Assembly (NCBI RefSeq): GCF_003027925.1
Contig: NZ_PYPS01000007.1
Span: forward strand, 1 to 64,000
Source of the DNA: Micromonospora sp. RP3T
Lineage (GTDB): Bacteria; Actinomycetota; Actinomycetes; Mycobacteriales; Micromonosporaceae
Length of the DNA stretch: 64,000 nt
Reading direction: 5' to 3'
Under the pieces are notes generated by a model. The model was given only the letters and a program-made list of their open reading frames with translations. It did no database searches and was not told where the DNA came from. Shown here piece by piece: positions 7,185 to 57,193 of the stretch (the stretch's first letter is position 1; every line of letters begins with the position of its first letter). The translations under genes and the position numbers were made by a program.

Positions 7185-7242
7185 GTGTTAAGCAGGGGCC
7201 CCGCCTCTACCGAAAACGTTAACAGGGGGCCCCTCCTTACAC
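7185..7242. repeat. Dispersed 3'-end palindrome, family 1, copy 1
   Basis: A 58-bp element with two GC-rich arms, each holding a GGGGCCCC-like self-complementary core, around the centre TCTACCGAAAACGTTAAC. Read from the glnD side (minus strand) it begins GTGTAAGGAGGGGCCCC, and its TAA (7239-7237) is the glnD stop codon. Related copies are at 15810-15868, 47980-48034 and 57144-57193. Confidence 0.85.
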
Positions 7243-9501
7243 GGCGGCGAGGACGGCGGCCTCGACGACGGCCCGACGCTCGTCCGGTAGGTCGGTGCCG
7301 ACCAGGTAGAACGTGTCCACCACGTCGCCGCCGAGGGTGGCGATCCGGGCGGCGCGCACCTGGGCGCCGGCCTCGTCGAGCGCGCAGGTGACCCGGTAGA
7401 GCAGGCCGGCCGCGTCCGCCGCGCGCAACTCCAGCAGCACCGCGTCGGTGGCCGCCTCCCGGTGCCAGACCACGCGGGGCGCGGCACCCCGGCTGCGGGC
7501 CGCGAGCGCCCGGCCGCGCAGCCGCTGGGTGACCGAGACGTCGCCGGCCACCGCCCGGCGCAGGTCGGCGCTGAGCGCGATCGGGTCGGGGGCGAGCCCG
7601 TAGCGCGGCTGCACCCGGCACTCGACCAGGGCGCGACCGTCGACCGTGGCGGCGTCCGCGGAGATCACTTCCAGTCGGTGCAGGGCCAGGCACCCGGCCA
7701 CGGTGGCGAGCAGTCCACGCCGGTCGGCCGCGGCCACCGACACCCGGTCCTCGCCCAGGTGTACGACCGGCAGCGGGCCGGCGACCAGCGCCGGGTCGGG
7801 GGCCGGCGGGGCGGGCACCTCGCCGGTGTCCAGCGTGGTGCGTACCCGGGCGACCAGGTCGGCGATCAGCCGGCCCTTCCAGCCCGACCAGGCGGCCGGG
7901 CCGGTGGCGGCGGCGTCCGCCCGGACCAGCGCGTGCAGCAGTTCCAGCGTGCCGGCGTCGCCGACCAGCCCGGCGACCCCGGCGATGGTCTTCGGGTCGG
8001 ACAGGTCCCGCCGGGTGGCCACCTCGGGCAGCAGCAGGTGCAGCCGGACCAGCGTGCCGATCAGCGCCGCCTCGGCCGGGGGCAGCCCGATCCGGGTGGC
8101 CACCGCCTCGGCCAGCGGCGCCCCGACCGTCGAATGATCTCCAGGCAGTCCCTTGCCGATGTCGTGCAGGAACGCGCCGAGCAGCAGCAGGTCGGGGCGC
8201 TCCACGTCGCGGGTGTGCCGGCTGGCCTCGTACGCGGTCTGCACCAGGTGCCGGTCGAGCGTGAACCGGTGCACCGGGTTGTGCTGGGGCAGACTGCGCA
8301 TCCGGGTCCACTCGGGCAGCCAGCCGTCGATCAGCCCGTACCTGTCGCAGGTCTCCCAGGCGGGCACCAGGCCGGGGCCGGCGCCGAGCAGGGTGATCAA
8401 CGCGGCGCGGGCGGCCGGCGGCCAGGGCGCGGGCAGCGGCGGGCAGTACGCGGCCAGCCACTCGCAGGTGGCGCGCGCGATGGGCAGCCGGGTGCTGGCC
8501 GCCGCGGCGGCCACCCGCAGCGACAGGCAGGGGTCGGGGCGGGCCCCGATCGCGGTCCGGGCGAGCACCAGTTCGCCGTCCTGCTCGACGACGTCCCGGG
8601 CGACCGGGCGTCGCACCGGCCGGCCCGAGGCGGCACGCTGCCGGCCGGAACGGAGTCGGTCGGCGGCCCGCCAGGCGTCGTCGAGGGCGTGGCGGACGGT
8701 CCGCGCGTCGCCGGCGGTCAGGCGCAGCAGCGCGTCGCCCCCGTCGACGCCGAGGAGCTTCGCGACGCCGTCGCGTTCCTGCGCGACCAGGCGGTCGACC
8801 CGGCGGCCGACCTGCTGGTGCAGGGCGTCGCGGGTGTCCAGCAGACGCCGGTGCGCGGCGTGCACGGCGGGACGGAGCGCGTCGGTGACGCCGGCGGTGG
8901 CGATGGCCCGCAGGATGCCGACGTCGCGCAGCCCACCGGCGGCCTCCTTGAGGTCGCCTTCGAGCAGGAAGGCCAGCTCGCCGTGGGCCTCCCAGCGGGC
9001 GGCGGTGATCTCGCGCAGCCCGGGGAGCTGCCGGATGGCGGTGCGCCGCCAGTGGTCGGTGGCGGTGCGGGCGAGCTGCTCGGTCAGGGCCGGGTCGCCG
9101 GCCACGTGGCGCGCGTCGAGCAGGCCGAGAGCGACCTTGACGTCGTCCTGGGCCACCGAGAGCGCCTCGGCGACGGTGCGGACCGAGTGGTCGAGCCGCA
9201 GGCCGGCGTCCCAGATCGGGTACCAGAGCGCGGCGGCCAGCTCGTCGACGCCGGGCACCCCGGCGTGCAGCAGCACCAGGTCGAGGTCGCCGTAGGGGGC
9301 GCACTGGCGGCGGCCGAGCCCGCCCACGGCGACCAGCGCGACGCCGGGCCGGGCCGGGAAGATCCGGTGCAGCCAGGCGTCGAGCGCGTCGGCGCGGGCG
9401 GCGCGGGCCGCCGCGCCGACGCCCCCGGGCAGGCCGGTGACCTCGTTGACCACGGGTACGCCGTCCCCGCCCGGGGCGGTGGCCGTGGTCAACGAGGTCA
9501 C
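7237..9501 (-). CDS. glnD: Bifunctional PII-modifying enzyme GlnD (nucleotidyltransferase / removing enzyme)
   Basis: Modifies the PII protein at its T-loop Tyr when glutamine is low and reverses this when glutamine is high. In 754 residues it shows the nucleotidyltransferase motif GGLGRRxxxPxxDLDL (about 60-75), the HD hydrolase motif FLHDIGKG with H446-D447, and two C-terminal ACT glutamine-sensing domains (one beginning VSVAAADRRGLL, the other LRAADAAGLLYRV). In actinobacteria the homologue is often an adenylyltransferase; sequence alone does not decide this. GTG start at 9501, 17 bp after glnB. It is the third gene of the amt-glnB-glnD operon. The TAA stop is contributed by a dispersed repeat. 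Confidence 0.95.
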   Translation of the reverse strand: MTSLTTATAPGGDGVPVVNEVTGLPGGVGAAARAARADALDAWLHRIFPARPGVALVAVGGLGRRQCAPYGDLDLVLLHAGVPGVDELAAALWYPIWDAGLRLDHSVRTVAEALSVAQDDVKVALGLLDARHVAGDPALTEQLARTATDHWRRTAIRQLPGLREITAARWEAHGELAFLLEGDLKEAAGGLRDVGILRAIATAGVTDALRPAVHAAHRRLLDTRDALHQQVGRRVDRLVAQERDGVAKLLGVDGGDALLRLTAGDARTVRHALDDAWRAADRLRSGRQRAASGRPVRRPVARDVVEQDGELVLARTAIGARPDPCLSLRVAAAAASTRLPIARATCEWLAAYCPPLPAPWPPAARAALITLLGAGPGLVPAWETCDRYGLIDGWLPEWTRMRSLPQHNPVHRFTLDRHLVQTAYEASRHTRDVERPDLLLLGAFLHDIGKGLPGDHSTVGAPLAEAVATRIGLPPAEAALIGTLVRLHLLLPEVATRRDLSDPKTIAGVAGLVGDAGTLELLHALVRADAAATGPAAWSGWKGRLIADLVARVRTTLDTGEVPAPPAPDPALVAGPLPVVHLGEDRVSVAAADRRGLLATVAGCLALHRLEVISADAATVDGRALVECRVQPRYGLAPDPIALSADLRRAVAGDVSVTQRLRGRALAARSRGAAPRVVWHREAATDAVLLELRAADAAGLLYRVTCALDEAGAQVRAARIATLGGDVVDTFYLVGTDLPDERRAVVEAAVLAAV

Positions 9502-9518
9502 GTCGGCGGATTCCGTGG

Positions 9519-9857
9519 TCAGAGCGCGTCGAGCCCGCGCTCGCCGGTACGCACCCGGACGACCTCCTCGACACCGGTCACCCAGACCTTGCCGTCGCCG
9601 ATCTTGCCGGTCCGGGCGGCGCCGACGATGGCGTCCACGATCTTGTCGACGTCCATCTCGTCGGTGAGCACCTCGACCCGGATCTTGGGCAGGAACTCGA
9701 CCGTGTACTCCGCACCCCGGTAGACCTCGGTGTGCCCCTTCTGCCGGCCGTAGCCCTGGACCTCGCTGACGGTCAGCCCGGCCACGCCGAGGGCGTGCAG
9801 GGCCTCCTTCACCGCGTCCAGCTGGTACGGCTTGATGACCGCGGTCACCAGCTTCAT
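9519..9857 (-). CDS. glnB: Nitrogen regulatory protein PII
   Basis: A 112-residue trimeric PII signal protein (GlnB/GlnK type) that reads 2-oxoglutarate and ATP/ADP and gates the ammonium channel. The T-loop carries the modifiable Tyr51 in RGAEYTVEF. The C-terminal signature KIGDGKVWV and the start [14 protein letters not shown] are canonical. I chose the ATG at 9857 because it has GGAGGG upstream and gives the standard length; an ATG five codons earlier would disrupt the conserved first strand. It lies 25 bp downstream of amt, the usual GlnK arrangement, and 17 bp upstream of glnD. Confidence 0.96.
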
Positions 9858-56225: not shown

Positions 56226-56265
56226 GCGGCGCGCGGCACGCGGTGGGCGGGCATACGGTGATCGG

Positions 56266-57147
56266 ATGAGCGACGACGAGCCGGTGCGGATCCGGGCGGC
56301 GGGCGGGGTCGTCTGGCGTCCCGGCCCCGACGGTGTCGAGGTCTGCCTGGTGCACCGCCCCCGGTACGGCGACTGGTCGCTGCCGAAGGGCAAGCTGGAC
56401 GCCGGCGAGCACCCGCTGGCGGCGGCCGTCCGGGAGGTGGCCGAGGAGACCGACGTGCGGGCGGTGCCGCAGGTGCGCCTGCCCACGGTCCACTACCGCA
56501 GCGAGGGCCGCGCCAAGGCGGTCGACTGGTGGTCGATGCGGGCCGTCGGCAGCGGCGGTTTCCAGCCCGGCACCGAGGTGGACGACGTGGCCTGGTTCCC
56601 GGTCGACGCGGCGGCCCGCCGGGTCAGCTACCCGCACGACGCGGAGGTGATCGGCGCGTTCGCGGCGCTGCCGCCGGTCACCACGACCGTGCTGCTGATG
56701 CGGCACGCGCACGCCGGCAAGCGGGGCACGTGGTCCGGTCCGGACACCGGCCGGCCGCTGGACGCCGAGGGGCGGGCCCAGGCGCGGGCGCTGGTTCCGC
56801 TGGTGGCCCTGGTCCGCCCGGCCCGCCTGCTCTCCGCCTCGGCCCGCCGGTGCGTGCAGACGCTGGACCCGGCGGCAGCGCGGCTGGACCTGCCGATCGA
56901 GGTCTGCGGCGACCTGGACGAGCCGGGGCCGGGCCAGCAGCCGGAGGAGTGCGCGTTGGCCGCCGCCGCGCGGTTGGTGGCGTTGGCCGCCGACGGGGAG
57001 CCGGTCGCGGTGTGCAGCCAGGGCAAGGTGATCCCGGGCGCGTTGGAACGGCTCACCGGCCGGTCCGACGACTTCACCACCGCCAAGGGCGGCGGCTGGC
57101 TGCTCCCGTTCGCCGGCGACCGTCTCCTCCTCCCCGACCGCTTGTAA
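56266..57147 (+). CDS. mutT1: MutT1-like Nudix hydrolase fused to a histidine phosphatase
   Basis: 293 residues in two domains. Residues 1-about 140 are Nudix, with the box GKLDAGEHPLAAAVREVAEETDV intact. Residues about 145-293 are histidine phosphatase: LLMRHAHAGKRGTW (RHG-like) and a late His absent or displaced. M. tuberculosis MutT1 has the same domains and removes 8-oxo-GTP and diadenosine polyphosphates. ATG at 56266, 40 bp after ppk. The TAA stop is the first codon of a family 1 palindrome. Confidence 0.93.
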   Translation: MSDDEPVRIRAAGGVVWRPGPDGVEVCLVHRPRYGDWSLPKGKLDAGEHPLAAAVREVAEETDVRAVPQVRLPTVHYRSEGRAKAVDWWSMRAVGSGGFQPGTEVDDVAWFPVDAAARRVSYPHDAEVIGAFAALPPVTTTVLLMRHAHAGKRGTWSGPDTGRPLDAEGRAQARALVPLVALVRPARLLSASARRCVQTLDPAAARLDLPIEVCGDLDEPGPGQQPEECALAAAARLVALAADGEPVAVCSQGKVIPGALERLTGRSDDFTTAKGGGWLLPFAGDRLLLPDRL

Positions 57148-57193
57148 GGCGGGGGCCCCGCTTAACGCTTTCGGTAGAGGCGGGCGGCGGCTC
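57144..57193. repeat. Dispersed 3'-end palindrome, family 1, copy 4 (truncated)
   Basis: Reads TGTAAGGCGGGGGCCCCGCTTAACGC, then TTTCGGTAGAGGCGGG, but the far arm (GGGGCCCCTGCTTAAC in copy 1) is missing. Its TAA is the mutT1 stop. The orientation relative to the upstream gene is as in the other copies. It also touches the 3' end of the convergent EEP gene. Confidence 0.8.

Follow-up and report, generated by a model that had tools for sequence, protein, structure and literature searches.

Results

Four copies of a palindromic element at gene ends

The window studied here, that is, the whole stretch of 64,000 nucleotides (nt) that was analysed, comprises positions 1-64,000 of the forward strand of contig NZ_PYPS01000007.1 of Micromonospora sp. 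RP3T (GCF_003027925.1), a genome of 7.13 Mb in 169 contigs that we denote G000. As a preliminary description of this DNA had claimed, it contains four related copies of a palindromic element, with a unit of about 60 nt, beside the ends of genes (Table 1). The reading that we favour, with moderate confidence, is that this is a non-autonomous palindrome of the kind known from repetitive extragenic palindromes (REPs) and miniature inverted-repeat transposable elements (MITEs), kept at gene ends and probably acting as a transcript 3'-end hairpin.

Table 1. Copies of the element and the genes beside them (positions in the window).
Feature	Position	Strand	Remarks
Element copy 1	7183..7242	-	glnD 3' end; GTGTAAGG...CTTAACACC; profile match E 5.9e-17
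Element copy 2	15812..15871	+	3' of MarR-family gene; right arm diverged
Element copy 3	47976..48035	-	ROK-family gene runs through first arm to TAA 48012-48014
Element copy 4	57142..57184	+	right arm degenerate; TAA 57145-57147 ends the NUDIX/His-phosphatase gene
glnD (PII uridylyltransferase)	7237..9501	-	Pfam PF08335, HD, ACT; ends in copy 1
MarR-family regulator	15383..15808	+	Pfam MarR_2; upstream of copy 2; stop TGA 15806-15808
Mycothiol-S-transferase/DinB-type gene	15877..16410	+	Pfam MST, DinB_2; directly downstream of copy 2
ROK-family protein gene	48012..49025	-	Pfam ROK; C-terminus element-coded (translation)
NUDIX + histidine phosphatase gene (mutT1-like)	56266..57147	+	Pfam, translation; ends in copy 4
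Exo/endonuclease/phosphatase-family gene	57192..59081	-	Pfam PF03372, gene call; convergent with gene upstream of copy 4

The preliminary description had the element supply the stop codon in copies 1 and 4, which is correct (the glnD stop is the TAA at 7237-7239, inside copy 1) but too low a count, as copy 3 does so too, making three of the four. Namely, the ROK-family gene stops at the TAA of CTTAAC in copy 3 and, because it reads through the first arm of that copy, its final residues, VKGGAPA, are encoded by the element. Two other generalisations fail at copy 4, which has a single GGGGCCCC arm instead of two and opens with TTGTAAGG and not with GTGTAAGG. Copies 3 and 4 each have gene calls converging on them from both sides (the plus-strand open reading frame (ORF) beside copy 3 is a weak call, with a score of 24.6), and therefore only copies 1 and 2 inform orientation; the model end of copy 2 is 4 nt ahead of the next gene's start codon. 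The combination GGGCCCN{0,8}TTAA occurs 6 times in the window, where shuffles lead one to expect 0.15, whereas GGGGCCCC alone shows no excess (6 vs. 9.2 expected), all six occurrences being within the four copies. At Rfam gathering scores, the window matches three tRNAs only and nothing at the element.

Family size and anatomy

A profile was built from 38 seed copies and applied at a cut-off of E<=0.01, with strands merged and reversed sequence as the control. In the 1.262 Mb of G000 that were read (60 stretches and the window, 18% of the genome) it finds 61 merged places, compared with 0 in the reversed sequence. Genome-wide, the motif GGGGCCCCN{1,10}TTAAC gives 169 + 182 matches and its backward pattern 0 + 1, while scaling the 61 places by length would put the whole-genome copy number at ~345. 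A second, independent genome, G006, contributed 53 copies from 40 stretches picked via the motif. The element alignment took in 114 of 119 copies.

The consensus reads GTGnAAGG m GGGGCCCC yyC TTAAC GC..TTC GGTAGAG Gm GGGGCCCC yyC TTAACACC, with terminal inverted repeats GGTGtAAG / CTTAACACC. Its centre varies: among the 58 aligned G000 copies, 34 have a centre of the GGTAGAG type, 15 have TGCATA, 3 form a perfect palindrome with AGACGTCT and 6 have something else. Stop codons are built in at several points, namely TAA at 4-6 (GTGTAA), TGA at 2-4 (GTGA), TAA at 22-24 (CTTAAC) and TAG in the GGTAGAG centre. Three-unit arrays occur as well (e.g. C51:30462 and C31:86990). Restriction-site avoidance was considered and rejected, since outside the copies GGGGCCCC is found 19 times, near the Markov expectation of 13.5.

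Placement relative to genes and stop codons

When distance to stop codons and orientation are tabulated for the profile matches, as the preliminary description had proposed, its enrichment at gene 3' ends stands, and strongly so, while its fixed orientation does not. Using gene calls from a model that had been retrained on glnD orthologues, the 60 G000 copies outside genes fall into convergent gaps in 24 cases, into co-directional gaps in 29 (17 in the orientation first described and 12 in the opposite one) and into divergent gaps in 7, with 1 more copy inside a gene call; the respective shares of intergenic base pairs are 17%, 51% and 32%, which amounts to an enrichment in convergent gaps and a depletion in divergent ones (chi-square p 2e-6, or 7e-5 against gaps of at least 40 nt). 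An earlier gene model, mis-trained by antisense ORFs, had given 28 convergent, 12 + 9 co-directional, 10 divergent and 2 inside. In G006 there are 24 convergent, 13 and 8 co-directional and 6 divergent copies, and 2 inside genes.

As for orientation relative to the upstream gene, said to be the same in all four window copies, the co-directional gaps of the two genomes split 30 vs. 20 (17/29 in G000 and 13/21 in G006; p 0.2), and in 400 kb each of two relatives the split is 2:2 (G018) and 1:3 (G021). The 80 named glnD-region loci do give 31:0, these being a few gaps seen repeatedly across species. After subtraction of the element, the co-directional gaps remain at least 40 nt long in 23 of 29 cases, as opposed to 383 of 706 ordinary gaps (p 0.008), fitting the ends of transcription units.

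The contact with stop codons, on the other hand, is close, as first described, and it is here that a direction becomes visible. In G000 and G006 combined, where an end of the element faces the 3' end of a gene, the GTGnAAGG end lies within 12 nt of the stop in 70 of 78 cases and the other end in 32 of 68 (p 2e-8), and in convergent gaps it is the GTGnAAGG end that is nearer to its gene's stop in 41 of 48 (p 6e-7). In other words, the directional feature is which end of the element touches the stop, not the orientation in gaps. In 32 of the 41 left-end contacts in G000, the stop codon ends at element position -1 (12 cases), 4 (9), 6 (9) or 24 (2), and elements contain, or come within 8 nt of, 14 of the 46 TAA, 32 of the 1007 TGA and 6 of the 103 TAG stops in the G000 sequence that was read. 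That said, the distance itself is not unusual. Strong hairpins (under -25 kcal/mol) start at a median of 12 nt after the stop at element-free convergent 3' ends (122/193 ends) and of 8 nt at element-bearing ones (33/42; p 0.33), in a control that folded 44-nt windows, a length which cuts the element's stem short. This unremarkable distance tempers any claim of a family-specific rule and speaks against it.

RNA structure and covariation

The predicted minimum-energy fold is a single hairpin in 57 of the 61 copies (mean -34 kcal/mol). Its mean z-score is -4.5, with 47/61 copies under -2; for the other strand the values are -3.8 and 37/61. Across the alignment, 83% of the cells in the long-hairpin pairing of columns 5-22 with 35-52 are paired, with 124 double changes as compared to 79+-9 in shuffles (reached in 0 of 500) and 4-27 when the pairing is slid. 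A model of two small hairpins per element was tried and rejected, as it shows no covariation excess (14 double changes vs. 15.6). The GGTAGAG centre, missing from many copies, lies in the loop region of the covariation-supported long hairpin; it would be at the foot of the second small hairpin in the model that covariation does not support.

Distribution and evolution

Motif matches are found in 27 of 61 Micromonospora genomes, at 0 to 446 per genome. A draw of 121 genomes from the family gave 1-5 matches in 9 of the 113 from other genera (reversed-pattern control: 0-4), and a draw of 200 from the order gave one match each in 3 of the 177 outside the genus. Among the genomes searched, the element is thus numerous only in Micromonospora, patchy within that genus and essentially absent outside it.

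Closer relatives were compared over syntenic 400-kb regions: G018 (91% identity), G021 (89%) and G032 (87%, zero motif matches). The 17 G000 sites in this synteny are filled, empty and unmapped in 11, 1 and 5 cases in G018, in 6, 7 and 4 in G021, and in 0, 11 and 6 in G032. Orientation is kept in 10/11, 5/6 and 8/8 orthologous pairs (three overlapping comparisons). Orthologous copies are less alike than their flanks (0.77 vs. 0.89 for 6 G000-G021 pairs, and 0.86 vs. 0.92 for 11 G000-G018 pairs), and the copies within G021 and within G018, at 0.79 each, are more alike than the G000-G021 orthologues; the G000 copies among themselves reach 0.74, below orthologue identity. Still, orthologues resemble each other more than random cross-genome pairs do (the observed similarity is matched in 9, 0 and 118 of 2000 shuffles). 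G021 has a spelling of its own, AA at columns 8-9, in 8 of 10 copies compared to 3 of 58 in G000. From such genome-specific spelling we infer conversion or re-copying, and homogenisation within genomes would appear to be partial.

At glnD, the 81-row tree places the window nearest to Micromonospora chalcea, M. marina and M. tulbaghiae (own or near-identical records may have been excluded). A copy is present in 18 of the 80 named glnD-region loci, and occupancy of the glnD stop changes at least 7 times on the tree. M. tulbaghiae has no copy in its 22-kb locus, its nearest kin have three each, and it sits among filled relatives at 99-100% support in the Shimodaira-Hasegawa-like approximate likelihood-ratio test (SH-aLRT) on a quick single-gene tree. 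Judged by eye, filled and empty glnD ends mostly share the stop residue, while glnD of M. echinofusca enters the first arm. No target-site duplication could be established between filled and empty sites, since their flanks have diverged too far outside the stop codon. In G000 and G018, the element directly follows the stop of a gene with lysine/alanine-rich repeats at its end (C85:203226, L041); the orthologues of this gene in G021 and G032 have an unrelated hairpin right after the stop instead.

As to possible carriers, a strict pattern of the element's ends, searched outside the called copies in the 1.262 Mb, had one match, which lies within a three-unit array, and thus brought no parent insertion sequence to light in this part of the genome. 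Plasmids and phages were also considered as vehicles, with copy 1 as the query, and gave no match at E 0.01. REP-associated tyrosine transposase (RAYT/Y1, PF01797) was rejected as the mobiliser: G000 has none (5 of 14 control genomes match) and there is no positive association over 61 genomes, the domain being present in 2 of the 20 with at least 20 element matches and in 15 of the 41 others.

Other repeats

A second inverted repeat, CGATCTTGCACTT ... AAGTGCAAGATCG, whose arms are separated by about 57 bp, is likewise dispersed in the genus; it occurs in 44 of the 61 Micromonospora genomes (up to 105 matches per genome, and 19 in G000) and also at one glnD 3' end (L104). The idea that it is the complementary palindrome of zero-copy genomes was rejected, as the two families can co-occur. 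A third palindrome, GATCTGTGGCAGT ... ACTGCCACAGATC-like, stands just after glnD in a Verrucosispora-type clade (L130, L133, L152, L162). Within the window, positions 36663-36746 form an abutting inverted repeat with 42-nt arms that are 79% complementary and contain TTTCACGGAAA / TTTCCGTGAAA, somewhat resembling a parS-like or operator palindrome. Two identical 79-nt tRNA gene copies are found at 62867-62945 and 63104-63182, with a third tRNA at 63257-63328, and an 18/15-nt periodic coding repeat spans 59197-59568, in a gene for an HU-type DNA-binding protein (59215-59850, minus strand) of whose 211 residues Pfam Bac_DNA_binding covers 1-88.

Discussion

How might a repeat of this kind serve the genes it adjoins? 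Under the 3'-end hairpin reading, a polymerase passing the stop codon would transcribe the element, whose hairpin would then fold in the transcript and, with or without Rho, terminate transcription in the manner of a U-less ('I-shaped') terminator; alternatively, the hairpin might block 3' exonucleases and act as an RNA end-stabiliser. Thanks to the built-in TGA, TAA and TAG, a reading frame could run into the element and be lengthened only a little, and the near symmetry of the element would let it serve both of two converging genes. One way to address this is to look at the same sites where the element is missing. In G032, the best 44-nt folds of 14 orthologous empty intervals have a median of -27 kcal/mol, with 12 of the 14 under -22, which is stronger than in its own coding DNA (-21, p 8e-5), its divergent gaps (-19, p 2e-5) and its co-directional gaps (-21, p 0.006), and similar to its convergent gaps (-26, p 0.45). 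Alignments show that several of these sites carry hairpins unrelated in sequence to the element. The strong folds suggest, therefore, that the site itself calls for a hairpin, the element being one way of supplying it.

Several observations weigh against this reading. No U-tract was found 3' of the hairpin, where the following 8 nt have a mean of 1.1 T (61 copies), and 7 of the 60 G000 copies lie in divergent gaps. The 7 empty sites of G021 show no hairpin enrichment (median -20 vs. -21.5 in coding DNA, p 0.6), and of the 14 intervals in G032 two overlap and three have no called gene 3' end nearby. What is more, copy 2 is only 4 nt from the next start codon, and at a site where the upstream protein ends in ...ILARAY-TGA the element separates, in four filled species, two genes that otherwise abut; four element-free species have TGAGGTG there, whose GTG can be read as the next gene's start. 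A strong terminator at either of these two sites would shut off the gene that follows, except where the promoter of that gene overlaps. The best fit would be a 3'-end hairpin that lacks a U-tract and is either of moderate strength or aided by Rho. Such ends appear to be common in at least one actinomycete, as the portions of PMC8269248 at hand give, for Term-seq in Streptomyces clavuligerus, 353 U-lacking ends among 535 highly structured 3' ends.

A bolder version, in which a self-spreading gene-end cassette directs its GTGnAAGG end to stops, so that a single family would determine where translation stops and where the transcript ends for hundreds of unrelated genes, hold or touch about 30% of the TAA stops in the sequence read (14/46) and be replaced by other hairpins in sister species, strikes us as unlikely. 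Somewhat easier to entertain, although still improbable in our view, is a purely selfish small repeat that inserts widely, is seen at the 3' ends of non-operonic genes because it does harm in other places, and uses the hairpin for its own copying and not for the host. Its patchy presence (27/61 genomes, 0 to 446 matches), the at least seven changes in glnD-site occupancy with the empty 22-kb locus of M. tulbaghiae among kin with three copies each, the copy between two genes that abut elsewhere and the ordinary hairpin-to-stop distance all speak for it, and stop codons are also built into RUP and Correia repeats, going by the part of PMC2229807 available to us. Such a repeat hardly accounts, however, for 70 of 78 left ends within 12 nt of a stop codon, for 11 of the 12 mappable sites being common to G018, or for the hairpins that zero-copy G032, though not G021, has at the element's sites.

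The nearness to stops could also reflect translation, with a hairpin at the stop codon slowing termination or blocking coupling and so tuning the output of the upstream protein, a role reportedly suggested for REPs close to stop codons in E. coli. Most left-end contacts do have the stop codon within the base of the stem or adjoining it, and RNA structure just after the stop correlates with lower coupling, at least in the accessible portion of PMC12548453; yet enrichment is highest between convergent genes, where downstream coupling is irrelevant, and ordinary hairpins are about equally near stops, leaving this quite doubtful. Just as improbable, we believe, is insertion directed by stop codons, whereby a putative machinery would put the GTGnAAGG end beside stops and the contact would be a matter of mechanism, not of selection. 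It would explain why the two ends differ (70/78 vs. 32/68, with the left end nearer in 41/48), whereas a hairpin role should treat both alike, and the stop position is, by eye, unchanged in several empty orthologues. Against it, no recent insertion with a clear target duplication was found, the hairpin-to-stop distance is ordinary, and the conserved orientation in 23 of 25 orthologous pairs (partly non-independent) implies that the sites are mostly old.

If the 3'-end hairpin reading is true, one portable repeat sets where several hundred genes end in a genus that is a major producer of antibiotics, and relatives with anything from 0 to >400 matches would constitute a natural experiment in the gain, exchange and loss of terminators. 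Actinomycete engineering would, moreover, obtain a compact part that combines a bidirectional terminator with a stop.

Comparison with known systems

Among actinobacterial intergenic repeats, the mycobacterial interspersed repetitive units (MIRUs) are described as overlapping the stop and start codons of neighbouring genes; unlike the element, they are not known to be long palindromes. No description of the family was found among the open-licence PMC papers listed, nor in Rfam for the window. Close parallels are REPs and the bacterial interspersed mosaic elements (BIMEs) of E. coli, Pseudomonas and Stenotrophomonas, with which it shares being a short extragenic palindrome in hundreds of copies, with a 3'-end preference and occasional multi-unit arrays. 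In particular, the more than 100 extragenic palindromic copies typical of REPs and BIMEs have their counterpart in 351 pattern matches, with only 1 of 61 copies in a gene call. However, the element is longer (about 60 nt), has two GGGGCCCC boxes, and is not accompanied by RAYT/Y1 transposase, which was not found in G000 and whose PF01797 domain does not track it. The GTAG-type tetranucleotide at the foot of the REP hairpin has a possible equivalent in the GGTAGAG type of 34 of 58 G000 copies, located here in the loop of the supported hairpin.

Bacterial MITEs such as RUP, Correia and ERIC are similarly small and mostly non-coding, with terminal inverted repeats and stops in several frames, as far as the consulted text of PMC2229807 goes, in which RUP and Correia repeats measure 107-155 bp, the element being about half that length. 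The terminators made of DNA-uptake sequences in Neisseria and Pasteurellaceae likewise arise from a motif that is scattered over the genome and that, where it occurs as an inverted pair, has been taken into use as the 3'-end hairpin of many genes; in the excerpted text of PMC1852404 they are, however, 9-11 nt long, generally present in at least 1,000 copies, competence-linked and equipped with T-tails, whereas the element has 60 nt, ~345 copies and no U-tract. With the U-lacking ('I-shaped') terminators of GC-rich bacteria, as far as these are covered in the excerpts of PMC8269248, it has in common a long GC-rich hairpin after the stop and no U-tract, the difference being that those are individual sequences and the element is one recurring sequence family. 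All in all, and within the portions of the literature consulted, the element would seem to behave like the REP/BIME and MITE families and to recall the uptake-sequence terminators of Neisseria (PMC2817692, PMC2267715, PMC1852404, PMC2229807).

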